From assembly GCA_029339505.1 (NCBI GenBank), contig JAQISU010000167.1:1-64000 (forward strand): a stretch of DNA of 64,000 nt, read 5' to 3'. The position numbers were made by a program, and so were the translations under genes. Positions 26,770 through 49,565 of the stretch are shown here, piece by piece; position 1 is the stretch's first letter, and each line of letters starts with the position of its first letter. The notes beneath the pieces are model-generated. The model ran no database searches and was not told the origin of the DNA. It was given only the letters and a program-made list of their open reading frames with translations. Origin of the DNA: Unio delphinus (Eukaryota; Mollusca; Bivalvia; Unionida; Unionidae).

Positions 26770-26925
26770 AGCAGCAGGGGGGGGGATGAATCGCACAAGA
26801 CTTTGGAGGCGTCTATTTGACAAACCAAGGCTTGTTCGTAAATGCTTAATAGAAGGGTCCATTCGGGAAAAACAGAATTAAAAAAGGACGACGCCAAGTT
26901 TTCGTCACCGTGTGTTGCTTCTATA
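26770..26925. repeat. Left terminal inverted repeat
   Basis: Reverse complement of 49404-49565, with small differences. Landmarks are GACTTTGGAGGCGTCTATTT and CCAAGGCTTGTTCGTAAATG. It starts with AG, as Polinton termini do. Confidence 0.88.
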
Positions 26926-26959
26926 CGATAACAACGTTGTTAAGATTTTACCACAGACG

Positions 26960-27115
26960 GGAACAGACCAACGTTTTACAGGCGTCGATCCGGCAATCCA
27001 AGGCTTGTTCGTAAATGCTAAATAGAAGTGTCCATTCGGCAAAAACAAAATAGAAAAAAAGGAGGCCAAGTCGTTGTCGCAGCCCCTCTGCTTCTAATCC
27101 TGGTTTGGAATCTCA
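26960..27115. repeat. Second copy of the inner left TIR
   Basis: Tandem copy of the left TIR's inner part: CCAAGGCTTGTTCGTAAATG, TAGAAGTGTCCATTCGGCAA, then GTCGTTGTCGCAGCCC. Its inner end is closer to the right TIR than the outermost copy is, which suggests an end rearrangement. Confidence 0.75.
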
Positions 27116-27170
27116 AAGCGATTCATGCTAGCAATTTATATGATGAATTAGCGATATAATTTGTATATTA

Positions 27171-28057
27171 ATGGCAAACGTCGGAGAAGCACAAATAACT
27201 AGATTAACTAGAGAACGGTTGGCTGCGATCAAGAAATTTCTCCCGGTGAGAGATTCTTTCAGAGATAATTTGCGAGCTAAACAACAACAAAAATTAGATT
27301 TTACCGCCGATACTGAACAATTATTTAAGCCGATAACTACGGCAACTGAGGAAGTTGTAACCGCGATAAAAGAGAGTAAACCAGATGTAAAACCTCCTTA
27401 AAAAAGCGGTAATAAAGTTCAAGAGCTACGAGATAAATTTACAGAGGAAACTTTAGCGAAGGTTGATAAAGATGATATAGCTAATTTAGTAGAACTTGCT
27501 GCGCTGGGATATTACACTAAAGTAAATTATTTGAAACCTGGACAATACGATTATATCAAAAAAATAGGTGAGATGGCTAAAGCGGTTTACAAAATTAAAA
27601 ATCAACTACCACAAATTAATACTGAAGATCCTATGTATCAGGCATATTTAACTGCCGTTGAACGAAAATATCTCGAATATCAACAAGAAAAGGATTTATT
27701 AGTATCTGAACAGCAACGATTAAAAACCGAACTAATACAACGAAAAAAAAGAAGAACAAGAACGATTAAAACAAGAACGAGCAGAAGAACGAGAACGAAA
27801 AACGAAAAACAAGCAGAAGAACGAACACGTGTACAACCAAGTCCACGAGGACGAGGACGAGGACGAGGGCGAGGAGGACGAAGACAAGAATACTGTTGTG
27901 GAAGATCCTCTTGTGGAAGATCCTCAACCTCAAGAAGAACCTGAAGAAGAAAAATTTGTCAAAAGCTATTGGGGTTCTCGGTGATAAGATTGGTACAGAA
28001 GTTAGTAGCAGGGCTAGTAATCTTGCTATTGAGGCGTTTAATTCCGCAAAAGAATAG
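27171..28057 (+). pseudogene. Element coiled-coil protein with acidic tail (first virion-block gene)
   Basis: Starts MANVGEAQITRLTRERL and runs in one frame across an in-frame TAA (27399-27401), past LGYYTKVNYLKPGQYDYIKKIG, into a helical Gln/Glu/Arg-rich region. An A8 tract near 27741-27750 marks a frameshift. One frame gives a poly-Arg/Gly run; the other gives an acidic Glu/Asp-rich tail (HEDEDEDEGEEDED), which looks more natural. A further shift leads to LGDKIGTEVSSRASNLAIEAFNSAKE and a stop. I do not recognise a named family. Position before the major capsid gene, high charge and coiled-coil character suggest a virion-associated or scaffold-type role (inference). Confidence 0.6.
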
Positions 28058-28112
28058 CTTATATCGTTGGCAAGGGGGAAAACACCAGTAAAATTACAAT
28101 CTACGAATCAAA

Positions 28113-29625
28113 ATGCCACCTAAGGTAGGTAGGGCAATCAACGAAATAGCAAAACAGTGATTGAGATTAATTGCTGATTCCGGTCTAAAACGATTATAAT
28201 TTAGATCAACGATTATGTAATAAACTGTTTAAACATGAGATAGATTATGCTTTTGATGTAGATGCTCCTGTAAGAAAAAATGATTCTATACGCGATTATC
28301 AATATTTTTCGTATAATGCTCAGAATCCAAATACAAGGTCACGAATTGAACTTACATTTGATGACACATCTAAATACTTCTTGCCATGTGAAGCATTCAT
28401 CGAGGTAGAGGGGAGAATAGTAAAAAAAATGATCATACTGGATTTGTCGCCGCTGATAATCTCAAAAATATTCCGATTGGGTTTGTAAACAATGGCATAA
28501 TGGCGTTCTTTAGCAGCGCGCAGTATATAATTAATTCTACTAGAATCGAATCCATCGATGTTGATGTTGATGTTGCAACCACAATAAAAGGTTTAGCTAG
28601 ATACTCTGACGGGTCATTTAATGATGTTTGCGAAGGATACTACCAATAGCGCTGATCATAATCCATTTGTTATAAGACGACCACAAAATAATGCTAAAAA
28701 CGCTAACGCTGATGTTGAACCTGTTGTTTTCGGTAATAATCCTAATTACAACGCAGGAGTTGTAGCGCGAAAAAAGATGATGGACCCCCTTGGTAGATTT
28801 TTATGTGCGATTTTGTTGGCGCATATATTTGGATTTTGTAGAGATATCAGAAAAAATATCTTTGTGCTAGTCATACTGTAGTGTTAACACGAAGGTCAAC
28901 TGATGATTATGCTCTTTGGCGTAGTGATAATCCTGTTACTGATGGTAATGTAGAATTAACAAAATTAGCTTTGTGGATGCCAATTATGACTCCATCGTTG
29001 ACTGTTGAGACGCGGTTGCTGTCTTTTATGGATCATGGAGGAAAGTCGTTGTTGAGTTGGTCTGATATTACAACAGCTACCATAACTAATAACGTTGTTG
29101 GTGTTTTTACTTGGCAGCTTGCGCTTACGAAAAATGTTTCCGCGCCAAGACGTATCTTTGTTGCGCTACAAAATGTAAATAGAACGCAAAAAATAGCGGG
29201 GGTTGCAAATGATAGTTTACAATTGCGGTCCCATATGATATTTGATAAATGTAATGTCAGTGAGGTATCATTGCGAATAAGTAATCAGCAAGAACCCGCA
29301 GAACAACTTATTCTCGATTACGGTAGCAATCAAATAGGTAGAGTGTATCATCGGTTGTGGTCTTATATGGGTCGTGATTAAAACATTGATACTGGACTCC
29401 AAATATCACAATGGGATTTTAAAGAATTGTATCCGATTTGTTACTTTTCGTTGCAACATCTTGATCTATCTAAACATTCGACCGTTGATGTAAAATGTCA
29501 GGCTCGTATAGGTGATGCTAGGACGATTTAGAGCAATTGCTGTTATTCTCAGTGATAAATCTATGACGCTCGAAGGTGGTGGTGGAAAAATACGAGTCAT
29601 TTACGCACCCATTGAAAACATGTAA
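28113..29625 (+). pseudogene. Major capsid protein, double-jelly-roll-like
   Basis: Begins MPPKVGRAINEIAKQ and continues through at least three frame changes to ENM and a stop. Characteristic segments are SRIELTFDDTSKYFLPCEAF, EVEGRIVKK, NNGIMAFFSSAQYIINSTRI, DPLGRFLCAILLAHIFGFC, VELTKLALWMP and PRRIFVALQN, ending with DFKELYP and SDKSMTLEGG. This pattern matches, from my memory of the family, the major capsid proteins of animal Polinton-like elements and adintoviruses (~500 residues). The capsid shell would be built from its trimers. The largest open piece is 28881-29381. Assignment is from motif recognition; structure prediction was not possible here. Confidence 0.78.
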
Positions 29626-29657
29626 CGGGATAATTAGACTATCAATATCTAAATAAA

Positions 29658-30140
29658 ATGAAGTAAAATCATGTTAATGTCACCCTAACACCTGGTCAGG
29701 TAAAAAAACTACAATCGAAAAATTCTACTACGTGTGGCACAGCGATAACGCTAAAAAAGGAATAAATAACAGGTGGATCAAATAAGTTATCGCTCAGATA
29801 AACTCAACTTAATCATTTAATAAAGCGTTAAAAGCTGGTACAGGAGTTAAGTTGACTTTTTCACAAGCCGCGGTCAACGATATGATTAAATCCGGTGGAA
29901 TATTTCCTCTTGCTGCTCTGGCTTCACAAGCTATTCCTGCTCTTAAAGCACTTGGACTAGGCGCTACTGGTGTTGTTGGTAGAAATCTTATTGGTAAAAT
30001 GTTTGGAAAAGGATACAAAAAAGGGAAAAGGATTCAGACTGCCGGGAAGGCGGTACACAAAGCACTATGGACGGGGTTTGGGAACTCAACAGGGCGGTTT
30101 CATAGGTCCGTTCTGGCTGGCAAAAATGTTACTGGGATAA
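29658..30140 (+). pseudogene. Minor capsid protein (protein VI-like type)
   Basis: Starts MK then a stop, and continues HVNVTLTPGQVKKLQ, KAGTGVKLTFSQAAVNDMI and the hydrophobic Gly/Ala-rich run GGIFPLAALASQAIPALKAL, followed by a Lys/Gly-rich stretch (GKGYKKGKR). In a shifted frame it ends GGFIGPFWLAKMLLG and a stop at 30138-30140. The order of repeated LT..Q..K motifs, an amphipathic helix and a Gly/Lys tail is typical of the minor capsid proteins encoded next to the protease in such elements. It would lie inside the capsid and could act on membranes (inference). Confidence 0.65.
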
Positions 30141-30145
30141 CATCT

Positions 30146-30582
30146 ATGGCTCCAATGTTTAATTTTGACCTCGCCGACGCAGTAAAGAAACTCCCAATAA
30201 AACATTTCAGAGGAGAATTCATGAAAGATCAGTTACCGAAACAACCACATATCCTAGAAACCGGTATAATTAATCTAGATGAACACACTGGACCAGGAAC
30301 GCATTGGGTGTGTTACGCGATACACCCCGATCAATTATTTATTTTGACTCGGATGGGTTGCCTCAGCCATGGGAATTTGTCAAATATGTGTCTAAGTTGA
30401 ATTCAATTCAAACTAACGCGCCAATATGGTACTCAACGCTGCCCACGCAGACATTAACAGATCCTCCGATATGCAAACGAGAGGTTCTTAACGCGTTGAC
30501 AGCTATCTCAACGTCGTCGCAATTACCTCACAAAGTCATCCATGAGTACACGGTGATGAATCACTTAAAGAGAAATATGTAA
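30146..30582 (+). pseudogene. Adenain-like cysteine protease
   Basis: Begins MAPMFNFDLADAVKKL, then HFRGEFMKDQLP and a GIINLDEHTGPGTHWVCYA segment that holds the catalytic His (GTHW). A frameshift near 30312 follows, then IYFDSDGLPQPWEFVKYV, with the acidic residue of the triad region. In the place where family members have the catalytic Cys-Gly-aromatic-X-Cys motif there is a lone Cys (PPICKREVLNAL). The protease would mature the virion proteins. The frameshift and the missing CG motif indicate inactivity. The gene starts six bases after the minor capsid stop and ends seven bases before the next start. Confidence 0.82.
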
Positions 30583-30588
30583 TATAAC

Positions 30589-31547
30589 ATGGCAGATATT
30601 TGGGGGAGATCAGTATCACGTCGTTCCGAAGGAGTTACCATCGGGCAAGTAAAACAAATCACCAGGAGAGCTATCTCATCGATAACATACTTAGATGAAT
30701 TAAAAAAATTACACGATCAAATAAATACTTTTTCAGGTTTACAAAAATCCGTCGATGCCGTTAAAGTCTCCGCCGAGGATATGAAAAAACTACGTGATGA
30801 GTATAATTACGATATAATTAAATTTAATCAATTAGAACCCACGATAAACAATTTCTTTCGTGTTCCGCGTGCACACCCTGATTTACATATCGCACAAGTA
30901 AAAGCCACCGTCGACAATTTACCAAAATTGCGATCTGAATTTGATTCTCATCTCGGTAATTTTAATAATTTACGTAAAAATTTTAGAAAAAGTGATGATG
31001 CTATCGAAAAAAATTTTTTAAGGATGTGAAACCAGAAGAAATTAAAACAACATTTGAAAATATTATTACAAAACTCGATCAAATAACCGCGATTAATAAC
31101 CGATTGGGTGTTATTCGCAGATCAATTTCAGATTCAATCGCGGTTATTAAAAAGTCCATCGATGGTCTCAAAACGGTCAACGATGCCATGAAAGAGGATG
31201 CAATAAGTATGATAGCAATCATTGAAAAAATAATAAATCCTCATGAGAAAACCAACAACGTAGTATACACGATTCAATACGGATCATTTGCGTAGACACA
31301 ACTAAATAATATTTTAAATATCACTGCAAACGTCAAGGGTATTTATCGATTAACATTAGTATCACCAACTCAATTTAATATTTCATCGTCGAGTTCATCT
31401 GGGGTCAACAATATAATATCAACGATCATCGACAAGGATATAATTGAACAATTTACAATAACATCCACTGATAATAATTTGGCTACGGTTTCAGTAACAT
31501 GGTATGTGAAATTCGTAGCGGATTTAAGTAAGCAATTAAACCCTTAG
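30589..31547 (+). pseudogene. Coiled-coil virion-block protein with C-terminal beta-rich domain
   Basis: Starts MADIWGRSVSRRSEGVTIGQ. The first 147 codons are mostly heptad-like (LDELKKLHDQINTF ... EDMKKLRDEY). A one-base shift near 31021 links to a second helical part (31026-31295), and an in-frame TAG (31293-31295) separates this from a Ser/Thr/Ile-rich, beta-prone tail ending DLSKQLNP. A long helical shaft followed by a beta domain suggests a fibre or attachment-type protein, but I recognise no family. It lies between protease and membrane protein, within the structural block. Confidence 0.6.
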
Positions 31548-31586
31548 CGGTTTCAATTGAAATTGTTCACTGTTGTAATAAATAAA

Positions 31587-32071
31587 ATGTCATCAATGAT
31601 GATTTCATCACCGACGATACCTTCAGTATCTCAATACCGTTATGATACCGTCAAAGAGCTTCAAACTAGCCTAGGAATTCTCTCCGATGAATACCGCGTA
31701 AAAATAAAAAATACCGACGACGAATCAACGTCTTTGACGTAACCGTGTACTCGGTATCTGGTGTAATCACTGGTGCTGGAATAATATTATCTTCGGTTAC
31801 AATGGTTGCCCCGAACGCTGTTCCAATTTGTATATCTGCGGCGACAACCATTGCGGGGGTGGTATCGATAATAACAAACAAAATATCATCGTGTTCCCAG
31901 CGAAAACTACACAACTACGTTGTTAAACTCGCTACAGTATCCAATGCATACTCGCAATTATCCGCGATGATTTCCTCGTCGCTCGATGACACATTTATAT
32001 CCGATGATGAATTCTCGAAGATGGTTCGGTTGTATGATTCAACGATGTCAAAATTAGAGCATGACAATTAA
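31587..32071 (+). pseudogene. Membrane protein of the virion block
   Basis: The N-terminal part starts MSSMMISSPTIPSVSQY and is Lys/Asp-rich. A frameshift near 31740 leads to two hydrophobic segments (VSGVITGAGIILSSVTMVA and AVPICISAATTIAGVVSII), then a short basic turn and the helix KLATVSNAYSQLSAMISSSL, ending with the acidic ISDDEFSKM. I recall this layout (basic N-terminus, hydrophobic hairpin, helix with SDEEF) from conserved unnamed proteins of animal Polinton-like elements. The role is unknown. Confidence 0.6.
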
Positions 32072-36403: not shown

Positions 36404-36868
36404 TTAAACGTTTTGAAAAGCCGTCTTAGTTATATTCTCTGCAACATATTGTATTGAGGCTCTACAAATATAGAAATACCTACCGGCGCTATTCATAGAT
36501 TGAAATACCATTTTTTCATTAGTTGCTAAATTAAATGATTTAACAGGTCTCTTCCCAATTGATTTACAATTGCCAGTTTTCCCATATGCAGTATTTTCAC
36601 TCTGTGTAACAGCTCGTAAATTACTCAAAGAATTATCAGTCTTAATACCATTTATGTGATCAATAACAAAACCATCCTTGATCAATCCGTTTTACACTTC
36701 ATACACGAATCGATGATTACGATAAGTTTTATTTCCGGTGCCAAACACCAAAAATCCCATACCATTGTCAGCACCAAATGGCTTCTTCAGTCTACGGTGT
36801 CTAACTATACCGGCACGGGATGCCTCATAGTCGCTGATCACAGAATGAGGTTGAAATTCTTGGTTAAT
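36404..36868 (-). pseudogene. HNH homing-endonuclease-like protein with NUMOD domains
   Basis: The minus-strand frame begins just after a stop at 36868 with no ATG. It reads SVISDYEASRAGIVRHRRL, FLVFGTGNKTYRNHRFVYEV (a NUMOD4/HNH lead-in), a stop codon near 36688, then FVIDHINGIKTDNSLSNLR (the HNH_3-type DHINGxxxDN..NLR box) and a NUMOD1-like tail (VKSFNLATNEKMVF...SAGRYFYI). Such enzymes cut specific DNA sites and are common in phages and large DNA viruses. It sits alone between the Cys-rich ribbon gene and the spacer. The stop and missing start show it is inactive here. Confidence 0.8.
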
Positions 36869-37250: not shown

Positions 37251-40200
37251 ATGAAGGAGTTCGAGAGATTGTCGAAAATTACGCCTTGGAAAAATGCTAA
37301 ATTTAATCTCGATAGAGTATACACTGATACACAAAAGAGTCTAATAGAAGACTGAACCGTGATACGTAAAATTCGTGATTGTTTTAATGAATTCAAACGC
37401 GATGGAGCATCTCATTGTTGGTCAACATTTCGAATTATTGATGATGATGTTGATGTACCCATAATCGATGCTACCATGAACGACAACAAGCAGTAGCGAT
37501 AATTTCACATCTCGGGGAAAAAAGTATTTCTATAGAGTGAAATTTGTTAAAATGGCAAAAGAGTAAGGATACGAAAAATGGATTATTGAAGATAAATTGG
37601 AACCAATCTTGAGAAATAAAAGAACTGTTACTGTGAGTCGTGATTCTATCCCGGGGATGTTGACCAGGATTGATAAACCATATTACGATGTAGCTTATCC
37701 CGTAACAGCAGTTATTTACGGAATCTATCAGTTAAATGATAAACCTGATATTGCAAAACTAGCACCTATGAACCTGTCGCTGTCGACTTCGTCAGAAAAG
37801 AATTGTGTATCAGAACGATTAATAGAACACCTCAAGAATGCATTGCGTGGAAACAAATTGACTGATCTAAGACGCAAAAAAAATAAATGAATGAGGATTA
37901 ACAGTGAAGGAGTGCGGAGCAACGATTCAATATATAACCAAATTAGAAAGATCATTAAGATTCCCAATAACCATAATGACGATAACAGGAAAAGTATTGC
38001 ACGAATCAAAATATAAATCAAAAGGAGCTCCAATCAAAATTATTGATCATAACGAACACGCGTGGACACCTGTAGTAACAATATTTCCGCGAGATAGAAC
38101 AATAAAATATATACCGGCGGAGTTCTCGGCGGGGGATTTCTCTGAGGAGAAATTATTTGATTTTATTTACCAGCTAAGTGAAAATCGTTCTTGTGTCAGT
38201 GTGGTTACTTCACAGTTTTGAGCATGAAGAGGGAAAATTGGATCAATTTGTAAAACCAAACGGCGAATTATACCGTACTGAAACCCTGCACAACGAGATG
38301 AAAACACTAGCATGTGGTTATCAAAGGAACACGACGAACAATTATTAACAAACTGTTTTACAATTCCATCTGTTGCAGCTCACTTCGCGAGAGAGAAAAA
38401 CGCGTGGAAACCAATGTGAGGTGAGTTTCTCACAGACATCAAATCAAGCTGCATCGAATACGGCCATGACGGATTATGGAATACAAAATATGACCGCGAA
38501 AATATTATTTAAGTTGATTTGGTCGCGTGTTATCCCGGAAGTTTTCTCGGGTACGGAGAATGCGCTGAATACTTCAAGCGATTTGGACATCCCACACATG
38601 AGATGACCCGTGTTGCGATTAATGGGCCGTTACCCGATTTTGATTTAACCGGATTCGCACGTGTGGTATCATTTGAATTGGCTAAAGGACTTCATCCGTG
38701 TTGTTATGTATGGATTGGTAGACACATATCATGAAAAATACTGGATGCCAATAGTGCTATTACGGTATATGATTGATTGTAGCATGCTGATATCGTTGAT
38801 TGTCAGTGAAGCGATTATATAATATCGAGCGCAGACTGAGGTTTGGTTACCACAACCCGATAACATAGATAGTATAATCAGCGAAAACCAGAAACAATTC
38901 CCTGATCTCGACGAAGAATATATTTTGAAATGGTTCAAACAGATATTTGAAGTTAGAAATAAACAAGCAAAAGATCTCGGAAGCAGAATAATTGGCAAGT
39001 TCACTCAGAGTGGCAAATACGACAATACAAGATATTTTTCGCGGTTGATTATAGATAACGTTGATTACGATTTTCTAATTGCGGATGTAACGAGTAAAGG
39101 TATATACGTCGATCGTAAAGACGCTTTCTTGTCTGATGGAACCAAATTGGGTACAATTGTTACTGCGACGGATACAGTGTTCAGTATAAACATTTGAGGG
39201 CGTCTATGCTGACTTATGCTTCTATCAATCTATTTTCGATGATAAATTGATTTCCTGACACCGCAATTGCTTGAAAAATAATCAGATATCAGAACTATCT
39301 AATGCACCGCAGATATCTGATCCAATATGTAGATATAAAACCGTTTATTTAAACGGCTGTGGTGGGTCAGGAAAGACGACTCGTGCGATTTAGTTATTTC
39401 ATAGAAACGCATCAAACATGATTGTGCTAACACCGACCCATAGACTTGCAAGAGAGATGAAACAGCGAGGAATTAATTCGTTCACTTATTATAGTTTCTT
39501 TCGATGGAAAGGCGACGAATGGACCCCTGATCGAATGGGTGAGAAATTTATTCCCGAAATCATCATTTGGGATGAGATATGCACAGTGTCGTTAGATGTA
39601 TTACAAAGATTTCTTGATTGGTTGTTACTGAAAAATACAAGCGTGATAATGTGCGGTGATCACGGTCAACCACCACCAATTGTCGGTTTGACTCCACATA
39701 ATTGGCTGAAAAGTTTTGTAGACTATTATGAAGAAATTAATTCCGATCATTGAACACTTGATGAACAATTACGCGAGTTCAAGAAACTAATTAGATTACA
39801 TCCGGATAGAATCCAATGTGAAATAGCGCGTGAAATAATTTCAGAAACACCATTAAAAGATTTTTAGGAAACATGGAGACCAAACGATTTGATTGTGTCA
39901 AGTAGAAAGATAGTCAGAGACACTTCAGATGAAATTATTTGAATTACATAGAGAAAAATTTGCAACACTTCCAGTGCCGTTCTGTTATAGGCCTTCAGAT
40001 ACATGAAGACAAAATATCGAAGTTGATATTCCTGGACAGCGTGAAAAGCAAATTCTCGTATTAAATGATATTGTATTGGTTGATATCAGCGTCGTCGAGG
40101 ATGCATTGCTCGCTGATAAATCCCCATGGACGATAGGTTACGCAGCGACGATACATCCTTCGCAGGGAATAACTATCTCCAATACAATTGTTTGGATGGT

Positions 40201-40599
40201 AGATAATCACATCGAGTGGTCGAATTTATTTTATCTTGCGATGTCCAGAGTACGAAGTACGAAGAATAAATCAACTTCGAAGAGTTGTTCTAGACTATAA
40301 CGACACTACAATAAGTGATATTGTCAGCGTTGACATAGTAATAAAAAAACTATCTGGTTATAAACAGCAGGATAAAAAAAAATAAACGAGAATTTGATAT
40401 TGATGCTGAATTAATAACCACGTTGAAACAACAACAGAATAATCACTGCGCGAGTTGCAATTGTATAATGAGTTAGAGTTGGTCGGATAAAGACTCTCAA
40501 TTATTTACCGTAGACAGAAAAAATAGCAATATTGGTCATACCAGAGATAATGTGATGCTGACTTGTCTTGAGTGCAACAGACGAAGAGGTGCTAGTTAA
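37251..40599 (+). pseudogene. Replication protein: polymerase-like region + SF1 helicase + HNH
   Basis: One long decayed gene (~1,100 codons) starting MKEFERLSKITPWKNAKF. The N-terminal third has IRKIRDCFNEFKRDGASHCW and IIDHNEHAWTPV. The middle has DLVACYPGSF, a DxxxxYP box like motif A of family B polymerases, then FGHPTHEMTRVAINGPLP and HLRASMLTYA. The stretch expected to hold the YxDTDS-type motif C seems deleted near 39240-39290. The helicase begins at NGCGGSGKTTRAI (Walker A) and has TPTHRLAREM, IIIWDEI (Walker B), GDHGQPPPI, and late motifs GYAATIHPSQG and WSNLFYLAMSRV. The C-terminus has an HNH pattern (NHCASCN ... VDRK ... GHTRDNVMLTCLECN). Polymerase identity is inferred and helicase identity is firm. 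It ends tail to tail with the integrase, overlapping by 8 bases. Confidence 0.8.
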
Positions 40600-41526
40600 G
40601 ACCACGTGACGGTAATTGAGTATCCTCGGGTATCACTTGTAATTGTTCACGAGTAAATCCTTGCTGAGGAGCAGTTGAATCCAGAGTATTGATTGCTGGT
40701 CTACCCGTAGATCGTGTTATACTAGATATTTTATATACGGTGATACTCCAAATAGGATCAGTAGCCCTTTTTTTGCCACCTTCGAGCTCTCCTGGTTCAT
40801 ATAAATATCTAACGGTGACATTGCCGAGAATCGGTTGTTTTGAAATATCTTTTTGTGGTTTTACTGGTATATACTTCTTTTTAATGGCGTTGTTAGGTTT
40901 CATGTTGATTATTCGAGTAATCTCATTATTCAACGCGGTAATCACAGCTGGTAAACTCTTGACCCATTCACGAGATCGTTTATCCTGGATGAATTATTTC
41001 GCGTATTGATATCGAAATAACTGCTCAGCAAGTGTCCGATTAAATCGTTCAACAATTGCCTAATGGCGATGTAGAGCAGTATGTCCTCGGCGTAACGCGG
41101 TATTATGATTCTTCATTGTTGATAGAACTGCACCCTGAAATTCCTTGCCAGGATCAACTTGTAATATATTTGGCCAGCGCAGATGAGCGCGTCGATAAAT
41201 CCTTTCAAACTCAGAAGCAGCTTCAGTTGATGATTTTGTTTTTTATTGGCTCTGCCTGTTTGAATCGCCTCGCCAGCATCAACTACGGTTAGCGCGTATT
41301 TGTAAACACCATCATGCGGCATAAATAAAACATCAGCCTGAACTTCATTAGGGACGGTCACATCAAAATGCGAGTAGTTAATTTGTTTAGGCGGTGGTAG
41401 ATAAATTTGCCATATCGCCTGTTTGGATAACCAATCCGCTGCTGTAGTATATTTCACCGCTGCTGCTGTAGGGAGTTTACCAATTGCTGCTTTACCCCTC
41501 CAGTATCCTCTTGGAGAATAATACAT
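40592..41526 (-). pseudogene. DDE integrase of the Polinton-like element
   Basis: Starts MYYSPRGYWRGKAAIGKL and continues to VQADVLFMPHDGVYKYALTVVD, with the first catalytic Asp. A frameshift follows. The second Asp is in LQVDPGKEF and the Glu in AIVERFNRTL, 35 residues further on, with a stop just before it. The tail has VITALNNEITRIINMKPNNA and the conserved VRYLYEPGELEGG box, ending QLPSRGLN. It is a retroviral-type integrase that would insert the linear element and make the 5-bp duplication seen at its ends. The same protein family is present as a fragment at 21627-22207. Confidence 0.9.
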
Positions 41527-41541
41527 TTTTCCATGTTGTTA

Positions 41542-41904
41542 TTAATTACCAGCGCCCATCATTAATTTACCTTTCATCGCCGATTTTATTAACCATGAAG
41601 CCATTTTTTTTTTATCAGTGATAGAATTTAATGCACGAATTAATTTAACATCTGCGAGATGACGTTGTTGTAAATCACCGCTCCGGTAAGCTATATCAGC
41701 TACCCGACACGTCTCATCAACTGCATTTATTGGATTTCGTCCCGGGTTACAGTTATTTTGACTATCAAGTCTGATATCTAATCGTGTTCCCGGTCCACAA
41801 TAACTATATCCTGGAAAGTGTTTTTCACCTGGATACTTTGCCCATGGCGTTCCTGGGAGTTTAGCTAGCTTGGCGACGATATCACCACCGCTTTTTTTAA
41901 ACAA
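41542..41904 (-). pseudogene. PLA2-like protein (viral VP1u type)
   Basis: The frame lacks an ATG, starting near KSGGDIVAKLAKLPG. It has GYSYCGPGTRLDIRL (the YxGxG calcium loop with GPGT), then PINAVDETCRVADIAYRS and DLQQRHLADVKLIRAL. This is the phospholipase A2-like fold known from parvovirus VP1 and Polinton-like elements, where the catalytic helix has a His-Asp pair. Here that pair reads Ala-Asp (VADIAY), so hydrolysis of membrane lipid is unlikely. It ends KGKLMMGAGN. It sits directly after the zinc-ribbon frame, with which it may form one gene. Confidence 0.75.
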
Positions 41905-42030
41905 ATCGATATTTTTTTATCCCACATATCTCACACTTACTAGCAACCGCTTCTCGGTTATTTTTGTGGTAACATTTGTCAGGTGAATAGCTGGTGTACG
42001 CGCTTTATATTTCACACAATATAGATCCAT
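41898..42030 (-). pseudogene. Short zinc-ribbon protein
   Basis: The frame starts MDLYCVKYKARTPA. After a one-base shift it continues with NNREAVASKCEICGIKKYRFV and a stop. The MDxYCxKCxxxT start and the CEICG..K.RFV end are the usual form of a small zinc ribbon found beside the PLA2-like gene in such elements. The second Cys of the first pair is Tyr (CVKY), so zinc binding is probably lost. Confidence 0.65.
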
Positions 42031-42051: not shown

Positions 42052-42394
42052 ATGGAAGTGATTGATTTTTCAGCGTTAAAGAAAAAACAACAGGTAAAAC
42101 ATCACGCTATGTTACTAAACTCTATCAGGATGATTATTATCGGACCATCCGGAAGTGGTAAAACTCAGTTGCTGCTAACAATGTAATGAAATATATGACC
42201 TGGGACAAATTATATTTAGTTGCCCCGAGCGTGAATGATCAGCATTGTTATCAAGTGTTAAAAGATTACAACGAAAATGCTTCAGAAATTGCCGGTGAAA
42301 ACGTTGTTGAGTTTATCACAGATATTGACGAAGCACCATCCGTGGAAGACTTGGATGGAAGAATTAACAATCTTGTTGTGTACGACGATGTGAT
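42052..42394 (+). pseudogene. Packaging ATPase, N-terminal half (interrupted)
   Basis: Starts MEVIDFSALKKKQQ. It has the Walker A box IIIGPSGSGKTQLLL, a frameshift near 42185, then WDKLYLVAPSVNDQHCY and the Walker B-like NLVVYDD. This is the A32/FtsK-HerA type ATPase that pumps DNA into capsids of Polinton-like and related viruses. The reading frame is cut at 42395 by the Gypsy element and resumes at 49082. The gene is divergent from the zinc-ribbon gene. Confidence 0.88.
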
Positions 42395-44076
42395 TGTCAC
42401 AGAATTAGGCGAAAATTGAATTGATTTTTGTTGTTCTTCAATTGCAAACGAAACTCACCATTTTTCTTGATTTCGTCGTACACGCATTACCTGGGGTGAT
42501 TAAGTGGCGTGTAACGATTTGCATGTGCCAATTTGTAATTTACATGAAATCCGAAATACTCGTTTTACGTGGTGTACGGCAAGCTCGATGTGATTTATGT
42601 TCACCTATTGAGAGTATATAAGGCTTAGGATTTATCATAAATTTTTACGGGAACCCAAATATCTAATCGAAGGATAGATAACCTCGTCTTGCAAATCTCC
42701 AGCCAAAGGGGTGAGTGTTAAATTTACATTTCGTTTTATTGTGAATTTTATTCAGATTATCATTTCGTATAATGATGCTTTTATTGCAATTAAACGTGGA
42801 ATATTTGGAATTACTAGTCACTTTTAGACTTTAAATACAATATCGTAATCTACGGCTTAGATTATTTTTGAGACAACTATTATTAGTCTGGTTTTGTTTA
42901 TTATAGCTAATTCAGTCTGATTCAGTCTGATTCCAGCTGATTCCGTCGTTAATTCAGTCTGATTCAGTCTGATTCCAGCTGATTCCGTCGTTGATACCGT
43001 AGAAGTTCATCACTGATAGCGCATCTAATAACATCGTTGATACCGTCTCTGATACCGTAGCTGCTAACATAGTTGTTACATTGTTTCTGGTACCGTAGCT
43101 ACTAATAACATCGTTGATACCGTAGCTGCTAATAACATCGTTGATACCGTAGCTGTTAAACACATCTGATACCATCTTTTGATAAACGTCTTTGAAATCG
43201 TTTGATTTGTTGTGGGACATCTATTGTTTGTTCTGGAACATCTCTGTATAAATATCTGAATGTGATTGTGCCGTTAATTTGTGCAAACGGAATTGAAGTA
43301 TCTGTCTGTGTGTCGAACTGTCTGTTCGTCAATATCTGTGTAACGTGTAAATATCCGGAAAGCTAGAAGTCCGAGTGTCGGAGCTGTCTTAGAGTTGTAA
43401 AACGTCCGGGTCGACATCTAGGGGAGTGAGGAACCGTTGGTTCGGGTAGATGTTGTATGCTGTCTGAACGTATAACTGTGGTGGATCCGTGTAGGGAAAC
43501 GTCCGATAATAGTATTGGTCAACCCTCGGTTCTCGGGGAAACTGGGAGACGATTCAACTGTTGCTGAATCGTGCGGTTATACAGGGGAGACACATAGGTG
43601 TATTGAAATTGTGATATAATTTAATACATTGTTGTATTTGCATGTTTATGTCAGATCGCAATAATATTTCAAGTGATCACATAGATATCAATAAAAGCTA
43701 GCAACTTGATTGAATACAAGTATATGATCGTGCTAGTTATCGCAATCCATCGTGCGATAGATAGTTTGTCGTTTGTGTTTATTTTTTTTCGTGAATCATA
43801 CTTGCATTTATTTAACTTTCGTAAAGGATTCTTGGATCTGTGTATAATCCAAGAGATCCCTTTACATTTGTGATTCCTTTTGTATTGTTATTTAATTTAT
43901 TCATGTATTGTGAATGGTTGTGAGTGTAATTGTGGGTTGAGCGCGTGAATTATTGTGTTGTTACATCTGTATTTTTTTCCATTTATAATTTATTACATAA
44001 ATTTATATTTTCTTTCACAAATTGTGTTTGTATTGTTCAATTAATCCACCCTCCTCTCGGTAACAATTGTGTTACA
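42395..44076 (+). repeat. 5' LTR of the RT-less Gypsy element
   Basis: TGTCACAG...GTTACA, 1682 bp. It has tandem repeats in the middle (ATTCAGTCTGATTCAGTCTG block twice at 42909-42995, and GATACCGTAGCTGCTAATAA-type units at 43010-43150). These help explain why it is longer than the ~1.45-kb LTRs of the composite. Confidence 0.94.
42614..42623 (+). promoter_or_regulatory. TATA-like box in the 5' LTR
   Basis: GTATATAAGG, conserved in all five LTRs of the family in this window. Confidence 0.55.
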
Positions 44077-44077
44077 A

Positions 44078-44095
44078 TGGTGTCAGAAGTGGGAT
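44078..44095 (+). promoter_or_regulatory. Primer binding site (tRNA-Leu type)
   Basis: TGGTGTCAGAAGTGGGAT, one base after the 5' LTR. It is complementary to the CCA-tailed 3' end of metazoan tRNA-Leu as I remember it. Confidence 0.8.
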
Positions 44096-44289
44096 CGTTG
44101 GATTAAGTGAACTGTCAATCATTTTTGTGAAGGTATACATTTAATGTTTATATTTGAGCGTGACCTTCTGTTAAGATAATACTCTAGTTGGAGTTTATTT
44201 TTGTTTAGTTTACCAAGGTCCGTGTGTCCAGTATAAACGTGTTTACATTATTGGTTTGGTTATATATCTATATTCATATTACAATTGTC

Positions 44290-47211
44290 ATGTCATCCCT
44301 TAAGGACTTGGTTGCCTTAGGCAAAGAATTTGGATATGAAGGTGAAAGCTTAAGGAAATTTATTCAAGAAGAACAAGCCCGGGAAAGGGACGAAAGGGTA
44401 AGAGCAAGGGAATTAGAAAGGGAATCCGAAGATAGGAAATGGGCCTTCGAAAGGGAAAAGATAGAATTAGAGAAGCAGGCCGAAAGGGAAAAGATAGAAT
44501 TAGAGAAGCAGGCCGAAAGGGAAAAGATAGAATTAGAGAAGCAGGCCGAAAGGGAAAAGATAGAATTTGAGAGGGAAAAGATAGAATTAGAGAAGCAGGC
44601 CGAAAAGGATAGGATAGGATGGGAAATGGAAGCGGAGCAAAAGCGAATAGAGTTAGATGAGAAAGCAAAACAACGGGATCATGAGCGTAAGGTAGAATTA
44701 GCGACATCTGGAAGAGAACACGATTCTGCCTTTAGCAAATTAAGGGGCCCCAAATTACCTCCCTTTGACGATGAAAAAGATAACATAGATAGTTATCTTC
44801 ATCGGTTTGAGCGGTATGCCGAAAACCAGAAGTGGAGTCAAAATGACTGGGCGCTGCATCTGAGTGCTTTATTAAAAGGTAAAGCACTGGATGTATACTC
44901 GCGACTTCCTAGGGACGATGTGTTTAAGTACGACGTCCTAAAGGAAGCACTTCTCAAAAGGTACGAGCTCACTGAACAAGGTTTTCGAAAAAAGTTCAGG
45001 TATAGCAAGCCCGATAAGGGAGAAACCTTTGGTCAGTTCACCGTCAGAATTGTGAACTATTTTGAGCGGTGGATTGAATGCGGCAAAGCGGTGAAAACGT
45101 TTGAAGGGTTGACTGATTTCTTGCTCAGAGATCAATTATTTAATACAGTTGGGCGAGAATTAGATCAATTTCTGAAGGAGAAAGTCTTCACAAACGTAAA
45201 AGATATGGCTAAGCAAGCCGATTTATTTGCCGAAGCTCATGGGGGAACCCAGAACGTGGTTTTAAAAGATTTTAAGTCTGGAAACCAGTCTGTAAGACCT
45301 ATGCCTAGGGAGCCTGTAAAATCAGCTGAGGTAAAAAGGTCAGTTGGGAATCCAGTTTTTCAGCGTGTGCGGTGTTTCTTGTGTAATGCATTGGGTCATG
45401 TTCAAAAAGACTGTCCTAAAAGAAAGGCACTTATACATAAGGTAGCAGTGGCTATACAAAGTAAAGGTATATCCGATAACAATGTACATGTAGAACCTTG
45501 TATTCATTCGCTTGGCACGTGTTTATTTCCTGAAGCGCGCGTACCAACCGCGAGAGGATTTGTCAACGGTCGAGAAGTCGTGGTATTGCGTGATACTGGT
45601 TGTACGAGCGTAGTGATCAAACGTAGTCTCGTGCAGGATAACCAAATGCTCGGGTGGGAATCCCCATGTATGTTACTTGATCAGACGATGGGTCGCATTC
45701 CCGTAGCAAGGATCACAGTAAAAACACCTTTCTTAACGGGAACTGTTGATGCCCTTTGTATGGACAATCCTATTTACGATCTGACGATCGGTAATGTTGA
45801 AGGTTCCCGTCTTCCAACCATGGCCGATTTTAAAATACCTTTGGCCCAGGCAGTCGAAACGCGAGCGCAAACACGGCGAGAGAAATCCGCGTTTCATAAA
45901 TTAATAGTCCCTGAATCGATCTCAGGAATTTCCCGTGATGATTTCAAACAAGAGCAAGAACGTGATGAATCCATCAGAACAATTGTTGAGAAAATCACGT
46001 CCGGCGCGATTAAACATTGCAAGCGTGGGGGTAGCTCGAGATTCGTACGCAAGAACGGATTAATTCATAGGGAGTTTAGCGCTCGGGAGGGTAAGAAGTA
46101 TTGGCAAGTGGTCGTACCCCAGAGATATAGATCTCAAGTACTTAGGGTGGCGCATGAGTCAAGCATGGCAGGACACCTAGGTAAGGCTAAGACCACTAGC
46201 AGGGTAGTCGCTGAATTCTACTGGCCAGGTGTTAATGGCGATGTCACACGGTTCTGTAGGTCGTGCGACGTATGTCAGAAAACCGTCTGTAAGGGAAGGG
46301 TCACAAGGGTGCCCTTGGGACAGATGCCATTAATAGATACACCGTTTAAAAGAGTGGCAGTAGATATTGTAGGACCAATACACCCAGTTACCGAAAGAAA
46401 GAATCGGTACATACTTACTCTGGTTGACTACGCAACCAGATACCCTGAAGCCGTAGCGTTACCAACTATTGAAACGGAAAGGGTAGCTGAAGCATTAGTT
46501 GATATCTTCAGTAGGGTAGGGGTGCCAGAGGAAATCCTCACTGATTGTGGTGCCCAATTCACCTCTGACCTCATGGGTGAAATAAGTAGGCTGTTATCCA
46601 TCAAACAGCTAAACACTACCCCATACCATCCGATGTGCAATGGACTGGTAGAGAAGTTTAATGGTACCCTGAAAAGCATGCTACGGAAGATGTGCGCGGA
46701 ACGTCCGCAAGACTGGGACCGTTATTTAAACGCTGTTCTGTTCGCGTACCGTGAAGTACCGCAGGAAAGTTTAGGGTTCTCACCCTTTGAACTGTTGTAT
46801 GGTAGAACGGTTCGAGGCCCGATGCGGATACTACGCGAACTATGGACTGGTGATGTCGCGAACGAGGAAATAAAAACGACTTACCAGTACGTGTTAGATC
46901 TAAGAAACAAACTTGAGAGTACATGCCAGATGGCACGTGACGAATTGATTAAATCGGGGCGCAGATATGCCAAGTATTACAACCGCAGAGCGCGTAATAG
47001 GAAATTTCTTGTGGGAGATCAGGTGCTATTGCTTCTTCCAACGAGTTCGAATAAGTTATTAGTCCAGTGGAAAGGTCCATATGAAGTTAAAGAAGTAAAA
47101 GGTGACATGGACTATAAAATTGACATGGACGGTAATGTAAAAACATTCCATGCGAATATGCTCAAGTTGTATATCAAGAGACAAAGCGACAATGTCAATA
47201 AGGGGAGTTGA
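44290..47211 (+). CDS. gag-pol: Intact Gag-protease-integrase polyprotein
   Basis: About 973 residues from ATG at 44290 (MSSLKDLVALGKEF); an upstream in-frame ATG at 44224 lies in likely leader. In order: a highly charged coiled coil with 11-residue EKIELEKQAER repeats (roughly residues 60-130), the Gag core, a CCHC knuckle CFLCNALGHVQKDC (~360), a retropepsin DTG (~435), the HHCC zinc site (~620-665), and the DD35E integrase core with D in AVDIVGP, D in TDCGAQF and E in GLVEKFNG (~690-790), then a C-terminal domain ending KRQSDNVNKGS. It has no stops or shifts, unlike both composite copies. It could form particles and integrate DNA but would need reverse transcriptase from another copy. Numbering is from the 44290 start. 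Confidence 0.93.
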   Translation: MSSLKDLVALGKEFGYEGESLRKFIQEEQARERDERVRARELERESEDRKWAFEREKIELEKQAEREKIELEKQAEREKIELEKQAEREKIEFEREKIELEKQAEKDRIGWEMEAEQKRIELDEKAKQRDHERKVELATSGREHDSAFSKLRGPKLPPFDDEKDNIDSYLHRFERYAENQKWSQNDWALHLSALLKGKALDVYSRLPRDDVFKYDVLKEALLKRYELTEQGFRKKFRYSKPDKGETFGQFTVRIVNYFERWIECGKAVKTFEGLTDFLLRDQLFNTVGRELDQFLKEKVFTNVKDMAKQADLFAEAHGGTQNVVLKDFKSGNQSVRPMPREPVKSAEVKRSVGNPVFQRVRCFLCNALGHVQKDCPKRKALIHKVAVAIQSKGISDNNVHVEPCIHSLGTCLFPEARVPTARGFVNGREVVVLRDTGCTSVVIKRSLVQDNQMLGWESPCMLLDQTMGRIPVARITVKTPFLTGTVDALCMDNPIYDLTIGNVEGSRLPTMADFKIPLAQAVETRAQTRREKSAFHKLIVPESISGISRDDFKQEQERDESIRTIVEKITSGAIKHCKRGGSSRFVRKNGLIHREFSAREGKKYWQVVVPQRYRSQVLRVAHESSMAGHLGKAKTTSRVVAEFYWPGVNGDVTRFCRSCDVCQKTVCKGRVTRVPLGQMPLIDTPFKRVAVDIVGPIHPVTERKNRYILTLVDYATRYPEAVALPTIETERVAEALVDIFSRVGVPEEILTDCGAQFTSDLMGEISRLLSIKQLNTTPYHPMCNGLVEKFNGTLKSMLRKMCAERPQDWDRYLNAVLFAYREVPQESLGFSPFELLYGRTVRGPMRILRELWTGDVANEEIKTTYQYVLDLRNKLESTCQMARDELIKSGRRYAKYYNRRARNRKFLVGDQVLLLLPTSSNKLLVQWKGPYEVKEVKGDMDYKIDMDGNVKTFHANMLKLYIKRQSDNVNKGS

Positions 47212-47260
47212 AAATATAGGCGCAGACTACTTGAGTAGGGCATGATGGGAAATTTGTATG
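47190..47260 (+). other. Deletion junction replacing RT-RNase H
   Basis: After DNVNKGS and its stop, the sequence jumps to the last codons of RNase H (GGAGTTGAAAATATAGGCGC, coding the VENIGADYLSRA end in the composite). About 1.5 kb present in the composite is missing. The join lies in AATAAGGGGAG, where both parent edges carry AAGGGG. Confidence 0.85.
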
Positions 47261-47381
47261 AATTTGCCCAGTAATAAAATCCAGTTTGTAGTATAACCAG
47301 TGTAAATGTTGTAAGATATCATCAATAGTTATTTTTCTTCTATTCTGTGTTAGTTTTAAAAATGTGTACATTTTTATTCTT

Positions 47382-47394
47382 AGGGGGGAGGTAT
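47382..47394 (+). promoter_or_regulatory. Polypurine tract
   Basis: AGGGGGGAGGTAT directly before the 3' LTR. The composite carries the complement (ATACCTCCCCCTT) at 2974 and 9162. Confidence 0.75.
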
Positions 47395-49076
47395 TGTCAC
47401 AGAATTAGGCGAAAATTGAATTGATTTTTGTTGTTCTTCAATTGCAAACGAAACTCACCATTTTTCTTGATTTCGTCGTACACGCATTACCTGGGGTGAT
47501 TAAGTGGCGTGTAACGATTTGCATGTGCCAATTTGTAATTTACATGAAATCCGAAATACTCGTTTTACGTGGTGTACGGCAAGCTCGATGTGATTTATGT
47601 TCACCTATTGAGAGTATATAAGGCTTAGGATTTATCATAAATTTTTACGGGAACCCAAATATCTAATCGAAGGATAGATAACCTCGTCTTGCAAATCTCC
47701 AGCCAAAGGGGTGAGTGTTAAATTTACATTTCGTTTTATTGTGAATTTTATTCAGATTATCATTTCGTATAATGATGCTTTTATTGCAATTAAACGTGGA
47801 ATATTTGGAATTACTAGTCACTTTTAGACTTTAAATACAATATCGTAATCTACGGCTTAGATTATTTTTGAGACAACTATTATTAGTCTGGTTTTGTTTA
47901 TTATAGCTAATTCAGTCTGATTCAGTCTGATTCCAGCTGATTCCGTCGTTAATTCAGTCTGATTCAGTCTGATTCCAGCTGATTCCGTCGTTGATACCGT
48001 AGAAGTTCATCACTGATAGCGCATCTAATAACATCGTTGATACCGTCTCTGATACCGTAGCTGCTAACATAGTTGTTACATTGTTTCTGGTACCGTAGCT
48101 GCTAATAACATCGTTGATACCGTAGCTGCTAATAACATCGTTGATACCGTAGCTGTTAAACACATCTGATACCATCTTTTGATAAACGTCTTTGAAATCG
48201 TTTGATTTGTTGTGGGACATCTATTGTTTGTTCTGGAACATCTCTGTATAAATATCTGAATGTGATTGTGCCGTTAATTTGTGCAAACGGAATTGAAGTA
48301 TCTGTCTGTGTGTCGAACTGTCTGTTCGTCAATATCTGTGTAACGTGTAAATATCCGGAAAGCTAGAAGTCCGAGTGTCGGAGCTGTCTTAGAGTTGTAA
48401 AACGTCCGGGTCGACATCTAGGGGAGTGAGGAACCGTTGGTTCGGGTAGATGTTGTATGCTGTCTGAACGTATAACTGTGGTGGATCCGTGTAGGGAAAC
48501 GTCCGATAATAGTATTGGTCAACCCTCGGTTCTCGGGGAAACTGGGAGACGATTCAACTGTTGCTGAATCGTGCGGTTATACAGGGGAGACACATAGGTG
48601 TATTGAAATTGTGATATAATTTAATACATTGTTGTATTTGCATGTTTATGTCAGATCGCAATAATATTTCAAGTGATCACATAGATATCAATAAAAGCTA
48701 GCAACTTGATTGAATACAAGTATATGATCGTGCTAGTTATCGCAATCCATCGTGCGATAGATAGTTTGTCGTTTGTGTTTATTTTTTTTCGTGAATCATA
48801 CTTGCATTTATTTAACTTTCGTAAAGGATTCTTGGATCTGTGTATAATCCAAGAGATCCCTTTACATTTGTGATTCCTTTTGTATTGTTATTTAATTTAT
48901 TCATGTATTGTGAATGGTTGTGAGTGTAATTGTGGGTTGAGCGCGTGAATTATTGTGTTGTTACATCTGTATTTTTTTCCATTTATAATTTATTACATAA
49001 ATTTATATTTTCTTTCACAAATTGTGTTTGTATTGTTCAATTAATCCACCCTCCTCTCGGTAACAATTCTGTTACA
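47395..49076 (+). repeat. 3' LTR of the RT-less Gypsy element
   Basis: The same 1682 bp as the 5' LTR with two single-base differences. It ends GTTACA and is followed by the TSD GTGAT. Confidence 0.94.
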
Positions 49077-49081
49077 GTGAT

Positions 49082-49400
49082 GTTGGAACAACAACAAAAA
49101 ACCTGAAAAATATTTTCTCGAGGACGTCACAAAAACACGGACGTGATATATGTAACTCAAAAATACGCACAGATTCCAAGTATAATCACAGAAAATTGCA
49201 ATTTAGTGTGCGTATTTAACGGAACTGGAAAATACACACTACAAAATATTTATCAATATTGGTGTGATGGTGATATGGATTTTAATAAATTTCGAAATTT
49301 CTTTAGTGGTGCTCAGGCTACCCCGCACGGATTTATAACTATAAATTTATCAGATCCTCGGACACGATATCGTATTGGATTATACCGTATATATAATTAA
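49082..49400 (+). pseudogene. Packaging ATPase, C-terminal half
   Basis: Resumes in the frame broken at 42394. After one stop codon it has SRGRHKNTDVIYVTQ (the conserved GRH..I...Y..Q sensor-type segment of these ATPases), NCNLVCVFNGTGK and TPHGFITINLS, and stops at 49398-49400, just inside the right TIR. Apart from the Gypsy insertion, the visible damage in the gene is one stop and one frameshift. Confidence 0.88.
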
Positions 49401-49403
49401 TTC

Positions 49404-49565
49404 GGTTAAATCCATAGCAGCAGAGGGCTGCGACAACGACATGGCGTCCTATTTTCTATTTTGTTTTTGCCGAATGGACGCTTCTATAAAACATTTACGA
49501 ACAAGCCTTGGTTTGTCAAATAGACGCCTCCAAAGTCTTGTCCGATTCATCTGCCCCCTGCTGCT
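49404..49565. repeat. Right terminal inverted repeat
   Basis: Reverse complement of the left TIR. The outer end reads ...CCCCCTGCTGCT and is followed by the TSD CCCAT (49566-49570). Its inner end carries another CCATAGCAGCAG motif near 49411, echoing the terminus. Confidence 0.88.

Follow-up and report, generated by a model that had tools for sequence, protein, structure and literature searches.

A probable Tlr1-type polinton-like virus, integrated and decayed, in the genome of the bivalve Unio delphinus

This study focused on a single interval, 26770-49565, of a 64,000-nucleotide stretch of Unio delphinus DNA (the window), which very probably holds a Tlr1-type polinton-like virus (PLV) that became endogenous in an animal genome and has since decayed. 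The traits that point to this identity, as predicted from sequence, are a DJR capsid, an rve integrase, a C-terminal superfamily 1 (SF1) helicase within a long fusion, an HNH domain behind the helicase and an A32-type ATPase. The original prediction of a near-full-length, Polinton-like element, bounded by terminal inverted repeats (TIRs) and target-site duplications (TSDs) and carrying a nested retroelement, holds, and the lineage can be placed more narrowly, with a Tlr1-type polymerase-like/helicase fusion instead of a PolB and with an animal as host. The features of the window are listed below; the 14 slices mentioned there are regions near other capsid copies in the same genome, mostly downstream of the counterpart of 27147-27941.

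278-282, no strand: single CCCAT of a paralogous empty site, in host duplicate 6-282
21627-22858, minus: part of a second member of this family, with helicase end and integrase, 71% over 1,258 columns to 41176-39933
26765-26769, no strand: left TSD, CCCAT
26770-26890, plus: left TIR, starting AGCAGCAG
26980-27096, plus: partial second TIR unit within the left end, 87% to 49529-49415
27147-27941, plus: uncharacterised upstream gene, two ORF pieces, the first matched in 1 of 14 slices
28189-29378, plus: DJR major capsid gene, in pieces (PF21738, 2.7e-7 on 28842-29378)
29813-30579, plus: presumed minor virion protein piece and presumed adenain-like cysteine protease piece, 61% to an ORF of L095
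30583-31026, plus: uncharacterised ORF piece, 52% to L095
32169-34141, plus: presumed penton/minor-capsid-like gene, broken, at least three pieces (P0013, P0014)
36407-36691, minus: piece of a free-standing HNH_3 and NUMOD1 homing-endonuclease gene (PF13392, 1.1e-11)
37567-39194, plus: fusion gene, upstream and putative polymerase-palm-like part, broken, pieces 33-86% to slices
39259-40297, plus: fusion gene, SF1 helicase part, broken (PF13245, 1.3e-7 on 39394-39750)
40345-40596, plus: HNH domain behind the helicase, two pieces (PF01844, 6.8e-4 on 40477-40596, just under the cut-off)
40595-41538, minus: retroviral-type (rve) integrase gene, broken, 62-87% to slices
41545-41916, minus: phospholipase A2 (PLA2)-like domain gene, open over the piece (PF08398, 2.1e-9; 12 of 14 slices)
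42162-42389, plus: packaging ATPase, upstream part, 75-81% to 9 of 14 slices
42395-49076, plus: nested LTR retroelement, LTRs 42395-44076 and 47395-49076
44224-47208, plus: gag-protease-integrase ORF of the retroelement
49107-49397, plus: packaging ATPase, downstream part, split off by the retroelement, 68-88% to 8 of 14 slices
49445-49565, minus: right TIR
49566-49570, no strand: right TSD, CCCAT

Both TIRs are readable, as had been claimed, and in a local alignment 26770-26890 and 49565-49445 share 90% identity over 122 columns; a chance similarity was rejected, the score being 180 against a maximum of 32 among 50 shuffles. The CCCAT duplication first described is present at both ends. Once the retroelement and its second TSD are removed, the unit comes to 22,796 - 6,687 = 16,109 bp, in keeping with the expected length of about 16.1 kb and with two sister copies that lack the retroelement, C818:18672-34778 (16,107 bp) and C117:14226855-14242962 (16,108 bp). 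Both have the flanks and TSD of the window locus, and in both the two sides of the retroelement join over one GTGAT, which in the window forms the retroelement's own target duplication (42390-42394 and 49077-49081). C117 and C818 agree with the window at 99.4-99.9% identity over 9 kb or more on either side, so that the three hold the same insertion. The insertion of the LTR element into the ATPase gene is young and is missing from the two sister copies; its LTRs have 2 differences in 1,682 bp. No reverse transcriptase match was found in its ORF, and the same ORF gave no match as a query in a search of genome contigs.

The proposed empty site, with one CCCAT at 278-282, was upheld on its left and only moderately on its right. 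Positions 6-282 correspond to 26500-26769 at 75.7% over 280 columns, and the similarity ends exactly at CCCAT. To the right, about 30 bases from 281 appear, as read from an alignment, to resemble sequence beginning 17 bp past the right CCCAT, beyond which the alignment is poor until 691. Clear similarity then returns, pairing 691-1091 with 50373-50766, 1199-1513 with 51719-52029, and 15350-15923 with 52024-52618. The site thereby appears sound on the left and weaker on the right, with the wider duplicated segment in its support; in a third duplicate of the host segment, no empty site could be aligned.

A search of the 2.5-Gb genome gave 66 TIR matches, and copies with both TIRs, on which the original prediction had been staked, were found at eight further loci, including two that are 0.5-kb derivatives. 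Nine loci were checked at both ends, of which six have a perfect 5-bp TSD (CCCAT, ACATG, GATCG, AGTAT, TGTGT and ATTTT, the last if a single base change in its TIR is accepted), while three agree at 4 of 5 bases. With TIRs and target duplications of constant length at independent loci, this is integrated mobile DNA. It could be argued that the copies stem mostly from segmental duplication of the host genome or from unpurged haplotypes, given that C117 and C818 share the window's flanks and represent one insertion, and that the two derivatives on C485 look like duplicates of each other. As a general explanation this is scarcely credible, since other loci differ in their flanks and each has a 5-bp duplication of its own, which refutes it for them, and a haplotype artefact was rejected on the same observations.

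The virion genes were identified partly from their relatives. In the capsid region, three pieces other than that with the PF21738 match had no Pfam match. A model of the capsid relative P0016, which is 59% similar to P0001 (pLDDT 74.0, pTM 0.76), found its best PDB folds among the capsids of iridovirus, PBCV-1, Sputnik and mavirus (E 1e-13 to 3e-12, TM about 0.5), so that the DJR assignment is supported by PF21738 together with a predicted fold, the latter for the relative. An earlier model, built on 10 sequences, reached a pLDDT of only 50.5 and was set aside as poor. The named capsid relatives P0041, P0044 and P0053 are from Sinanodonta woodiana. The protease gene of the original prediction is likely but short of proof: region 29813-30579, which we take to encode a minor virion protein and an adenain-like cysteine protease, had no Pfam match, and its protease assignment depends on a single borderline match, between the related L095 ORF and the ASFV protease S273R (E 0.047). 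The gene that we take to specify a penton is conserved, with an open frame of 601 aa elsewhere (L095:2511-4313), and neither it nor this relative had a Pfam match.

In the replication gene, 37567-39194 had no Pfam match; the Walker A motif of the helicase lies within 39259-39390, the helicase of the relative L094 matches PF13245 (AAA_19) at 4.4e-11, and open frames of 715 and 817 aa (L094 and L099) hold the upstream part together with the SF1 helicase. In an alignment of open frames, two polymerase-like motifs could be made out by eye upstream of Walker A, a motif A (e.g., ISACYPGSF) and a motif C (e.g., VATDSMY, without the first Asp), a layout that matches the account of Tlr1-like proteins in the available part of PMC11071308. 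Because hhalign of the fusion protein against the co-resident PolB gave no match, and Pfam no PolB hit, the putative polymerase part rests on these motifs. An HNH domain follows the helicase in 8 of 14 slices, and L103 1198-2625 (minus) carries both in one open frame. The free HNH piece at 36407-36691, also with PF07453 at 0.0016 (under the cut-off), is present in 11 of 14.

The integrase pieces of the window had no rve match of their own, but open relatives match PF00665 at 2.6e-9 (L105, over the cut-off) and 3.4e-7 (another, under the cut-off). When a fragment of the integrase was compared by hhalign with that of the LTR element, the expected residues fell together, but the match was not significant (probability 0.6%, E 0.098). 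Open relatives of the ATPase match PF04665 (Pox_A32) at 1.7e-13 and 3.6e-12. The order helicase, integrase and PLA2 seen in the window recurs in 11 of 14 slices, the other three being without it. No piece of the capsid, integrase, PLA2 or helicase had a significant match in the PDB, and Rfam and tRNA scans of the window gave none.

Altogether, the capsid, ATPase, integrase and replication genes originally proposed were confirmed, in part by way of homologous open copies at other loci. The suggestion that this copy would make a good reference for its lineage has to be abandoned, because the capsid, fusion, penton and integrase genes are frameshifted or stopped and the ATPase gene is split by the retroelement; the PLA2 piece is open. 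Production of capsid, replication protein, integrase and ATPase by this copy should no longer be possible. In an intact relative, the polymerase-like/helicase fusion would replicate linear DNA from the inverted repeats, perhaps by protein priming as proposed for Tlr1-like proteins, the ATPase would package it into DJR capsids matured by the protease, PLA2 would aid cell entry, and the integrase would insert the DNA by a 5-bp staggered cut. The events at this locus may have begun with duplication of a host segment; the virus would then have inserted into one of the duplicates and decayed, the locus would have diverged between alleles or been duplicated, and the LTR insertion would have come last.

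The same genome harbours PolB elements, and the interval might be seen as an ordinary Maverick/Polinton (adintovirus) in which PolB has been lost or is unrecognisable. A protein-primed PolB gene (PF03175) found no match in the window pieces scanned. PolB loci carry their own capsid genes (outside the 137 scored), 53-60% similar to that of the window, one has a penton 41% similar to the penton-like gene, and both an rve integrase and PLA2 are present in the window, PLA2 being known from some polintons according to the part of PMC4642659 available. The idea that the capsid and PolB families are never linked was rejected, related capsid genes being found at PolB loci. Capsid and PolB are neighbours at both PolB loci studied; since no TIRs were found around the two within the stretches fetched, their union in one element rests on proximity. 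Against an ordinary Polinton, 11 of the 14 slices near other capsids have the fusion helicase in its place, and none of the 137 listed capsid copies lies within 30 kb of any of the 75 listed PolB loci. The integrase and ATPase are only 26-27% identical to their counterparts at PolB loci, where the integrase (L109) has a chromodomain, a trait of PolB-type Polintons, and is 27% identical to the window type, for which L098 and L105 gave no chromodomain match. The C22 locus, read in part, with TIRs, TSD, open capsid and helicase, points the same way, and loss of PolB from an ordinary Polinton is highly improbable.

Genome-wide, at least 137 capsid and at least 150 helicase matches were scored. A transposon that was never packaged, spreading within the genome as DNA only with capsid genes as passengers, would be compatible with the gene assignments and with the many integrated copies. 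Viral-contig searches with the capsid piece, two capsid alignments, the helicase piece and the helicase end found no relative, and thus no free viral contig; 51 viral contigs drawn by a degenerate helicase-motif pattern were compared by tblastn with 21 pieces of the element, and none matched at E 1e-2. The capsid alignment likewise gave no match in a search of genome contigs. This explanation is nevertheless rather unlikely, since 45 of the 137 listed capsid genes are open over at least 470 codons with no stop in the match, suggesting selection on the capsid or recent acquisition. Returning to a Tlr1-type virus, it is possible, at a little under an even chance, that a chimeric bivalve virus lineage, with an animal-polinton capsid module and a Tlr1-type replication module otherwise found chiefly in elements of protists or associated with giant viruses, persists beside true PolB polintons in hundreds of germline copies with many open genes, and may still make virions.

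Compared with Mavericks/Polintons and adintoviruses of the PolB type, the element is alike in its related DJR capsid, rve integrase, A32/FtsK-type ATPase, TIRs and occurrence in animal genomes, but no PolB or chromodomain match was found and its TSD is 5 bp, that of Polintons being 6 bp. With the Tlr1 element of Tetrahymena thermophila and PLVs with a Tlr1-like helicase (pPolB-S1H) it shares the DJR capsid, packaging ATPase and a long helicase fusion, here with a putative polymerase part, and with Tlr1 the rve integrase; it differs in its animal host, PLA2 and free HNH genes, a capsid akin to those of co-resident PolB elements, and a measured 5-bp duplication. A homing-endonuclease domain lies behind the fusion here, as in some Tlr1-type members, being HNH in this element and GIY-YIG or HNH in those, as far as the available text of PMC11071308 describes them. 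That text reports Tlr1-type polymerase-helicase elements from a ciliate, PLVs and transpovirons, and the animal elements discussed in the available parts of PMC10120064 and PMC7805220 are Maverick-Polintons/adintoviruses, described by pPolB and rve genes. Here, a replication gene like that of viruses described mostly from unicellular hosts occurs in a large family of an animal genome, which allows one to ask whether its members are transposons or infectious viruses, and the PolB elements with a related capsid beside it make an exchange of capsid and replication modules testable by phylogeny. Chimeras as a class have already been reported, as meldviruses from animal datasets join animal-virus-type virion genes to non-PolB replication genes in the same manner, the example in the accessible part of PMC11071296 having a primase-SF2 helicase and a tyrosine recombinase where this element has a Tlr1-type fusion and an rve integrase. 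The endogenous PLV of Oxyrrhis marina, OmPLV, carries an SF1-helicase/pPolB fusion comparable to the putative one here, but in the portion of PMC12721341 that describes it the helicase comes first and is accompanied by a tyrosine recombinase, whereas the present fusion starts with its polymerase-like part and the element has an rve integrase.

The element at 26770-49565 is supported as a decayed copy of a Tlr1-type polinton-like virus (PLV) and as a member of a large family in the genome of a probable bivalve. The original prediction of a polinton-like element with terminal inverted repeats (TIRs) and a target-site duplication (TSD) was confirmed, and its interpretation holds under this sharper name. 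The TIRs are real, with an alignment score of 180 against a best of 32 in 50 shuffles, and CCCAT lies on both sides.

Ends and duplications of the viral element and of the retroelement nested in it
26770-26890 and 49565-49445: viral TIR pair, 90% identity over 122 alignment columns
26980-27096: second partial TIR unit, inside the left end
CCCAT: target duplication of the element, on both flanks of the TIRs
42395-44076 and 47395-49076: LTRs of the nested retroelement, 2 differences in 1,682 positions
42390-42394 and 49077-49081: GTGAT, TSD of the nested retroelement

Two further assembled copies of the locus, on contigs C117 and C818, carry the same CCCAT and share at least 9 kb with the window on each side at 99.4–99.9% identity and are, on these grounds, other haplotypes or recent duplicates of the same viral insertion. 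In both, the 40-bp sides of the retroelement overlap in a single GTGAT. The element measures 16,107 and 16,108 bp in these copies, and 16,109 bp in the window once the retroelement and one TSD are subtracted.

A paralogous empty site had also been proposed, at the lone CCCAT at 278-282, and here the left side proved good and the right side only moderate. Host segment 26500-26769 has a duplicate at 6-282 (75.7%, 280 columns) that stops exactly at this CCCAT, while to its right about 30 bases appear to resemble the sequence beginning 17 bp past the right-hand CCCAT. Similarity is then lost and returns in patches at 691-1091, 1199-1513 and 15350-15923, the last beyond another retroelement, and this wider colinearity supports the empty site despite its moderate right side. 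Host sequence at 1-55108 and 60252-62470 is a tandem duplication whose copies, three or more in number, have diverged mostly to 71–80% identity. A thrombospondin type 1 exon-like ORF at 59418-59630 (+; PF00090, 3.4e-8) fits an animal host, and host duplicate 1 holds, at 17366-20462 (-), a LINE-like reverse transcriptase accompanied by a weak match to an endonuclease.

The LTR family found at 42395-49076 and 3271-7543 encodes gag-PR-INT followed by RT-RNaseH, and with integrase preceding reverse transcriptase in the Pfam matches it is a Gypsy-type element with a Copia-like gene order, as in Gmr1-like elements. The copy inserted into the viral ATPase gene gave no Pfam match to RT-RNaseH and so looks non-autonomous, yet recent. 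An LTR retroelement at 1508-15349 in the host duplicate is a two-unit tandem with three LTRs and a period of about 6,188 bp; it lies between two copies of CCATC. In the other host duplicate CCATC occurs once, at about 52023, and marks a second paralogous empty site, a clean one.

A search of the host's own genome (2.5 Gb, 1,246 contigs), in which the window spans C176:1-64000, gave at least 66 matches to the left end. Nine distinct loci were studied at both ends, leaving out C169 and C222, seen at one end only, and their TSDs indicate that the viral family integrates with a 5-bp duplication.

Target-site duplications at the nine loci
CCCAT: window locus, perfect
ACATG: C22, perfect
GATCG: C84, perfect
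AGTAT: C187, perfect
TGTGT: C127, perfect
ATTTT: 0.5-kb derivative on C485, perfect
TACAT/TACGT: C411, one mismatch in five
AAAAA/AAACA: C114, one mismatch in five
ATTTT/TTTTT: second C485 derivative, one mismatch in five

The C485 derivatives (250642-251148 and 388047-388554) are MITE-like, about 0.5 kb long, and keep only the viral ends; in both, the left boundary was set 3 bp outward on the assumption of substitutions in that TIR, and the second appears to be a copy of the first. The 40.6 kb at C84:786237-826836 lies between the two TIRs, with GATCG duplicated outside them, and is therefore probably an element that has grown through later insertions.

Family size was also gauged from the genes, the scored counts being lower bounds. 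Out of 39,964 loose candidates, at least 137 capsid matches (70–87% identity to the relative P0001) received a score; 87 have no internal stop, and in 45 of these the open frame also reaches 470 codons or more. For the helicase, 33,266 loose candidates gave at least 150 scored matches, none below 80% identity; three are the copies of the window locus and four lie in open frames of more than 1,000 codons. The window copy is itself decayed: its capsid is spread over four overlapping pieces, and its penton, integrase and fusion gene (polymerase-like part, helicase and HNH) are each split into several; the PLA2 piece is open.

These pieces were searched separately. Capsid piece 28842-29378 matched PF21738 (2.7e-7), the three remaining capsid pieces had no Pfam match, and of 43 candidates compared with the same piece, 12 proved to be relatives at E 0.001. 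A profile search recovered 86 among 3,804, three of them named as from the unionid bivalve Sinanodonta woodiana. The predicted structure of one relative, P0016 (pLDDT 74.0, pTM 0.76), is closest among solved folds to iridovirus, PBCV-1, Sputnik and mavirus capsids (TM about 0.5, about 10% identity), and among predicted viral folds to giant-virus, virophage, adintovirus, MELD-virus and adomavirus proteins. Since P0016 groups with PolB-locus capsids and is 59% identical to P0001, the fold predicted for the window's protein is a transfer from a relative. Pfam did not convincingly match the ATPase and integrase pieces themselves; they match open relatives scoring Pox_A32 (1.7e-13 and 3.6e-12) and rve (2.6e-9 and 3.4e-7), respectively. 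A protease is likely, short of proof: the window piece shows 61% identity to a relative's protease-like ORF, which has no Pfam match and matches the cysteine protease of African swine fever virus at E 0.047.

The helicase (PF13245, 1.3e-7; Walker A within 39259-39390) is followed by an HNH domain slightly below its cut-off (6.8e-4), and PLA2 matches PF08398 (2.1e-9). For comparison, 14 nine-kb slices were taken downstream of other capsid copies, picked from the 137 for open capsid frames. Helicase, integrase and PLA2 keep the window's relative order and strands in 11, including L094, where the block runs in the opposite orientation to the capsid by which the slice was chosen; PLA2 occurs in 12 (one partial) and HNH behind the helicase in eight, with both helicase and HNH matches in one open frame in L103. 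The free-standing HNH/NUMOD1 gene at 36407-36868 (-; HNH_3, 1.1e-11) is matched in 11 of 14, at the corresponding place and on the opposite strand. As exceptions, L095 ends ahead of the helicase part, L096 is rearranged and L100 gave nothing.

A PolB lineage inhabits the same genome, with at least 75 loci scored for PF03175 of 3,467 candidates, 56 of them in open frames of 1,356–1,368 codons (counted by eye). Among the matches listed, no PolB locus comes within 30 kb of any of the 137 capsid copies. Both PolB loci whose flanks were read have a capsid gene of the wider family, at a distance from the PolB match of 6.8 kb on C225 and 9.4 kb on C69. In a 15-row capsid tree, where the window piece fills 38% of columns and the tool warns of long outgroup branches, one clade (100/100) unites this piece, a helicase-linked copy on C365, P0001 and three other copies, and a second (89/94) the two PolB-locus capsids and four other proteins. 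Identity across the clades is 53–60%. PolB-locus and window-type integrases are 27% identical (C225) and ATPases 26–27%; a penton match (41%) occurs at C69 only, and the stretches fetched at PolB loci gave no match to PLA2 or helicase. Related capsids beside different replication genes suggest module exchange between lineages, although slow evolution of the capsid would account for some of this pattern.

As judged from titles and the start of abstracts, no report of a Tlr1-type element in a mollusc was found among the matches listed; absence from print is not claimed. It is already known that Mavericks, taken as a class, abound in bivalves, with 1.69 and 1.93% given in a hard-clam repeat table (PMC8905726), and PMC11071296 already describes animal-virus genomes joining adenovirus-class virion genes to other replication genes. 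That source also reports a chromodomain in adintovirus integrases, as in the C225 PolB-locus integrase (1.4e-7); a scan of two window-type integrases found none. In the open frames of L099 (817 aa) and L094 (715 aa), the fusion protein shows motif A, a motif C without its first aspartate, Walker A and helicase motifs, in that order. The polymerase-like motif names were assigned by eye, and neither Pfam nor hhalign against the co-resident PolB gave independent support for a palm. With its palm part read from these motifs, the layout resembles that described for Tlr1-like helicases in PMC11071308, in which S1H follows a palm, an HNH or GIY-YIG domain sits at the C-terminus and motif C has its first aspartate altered.
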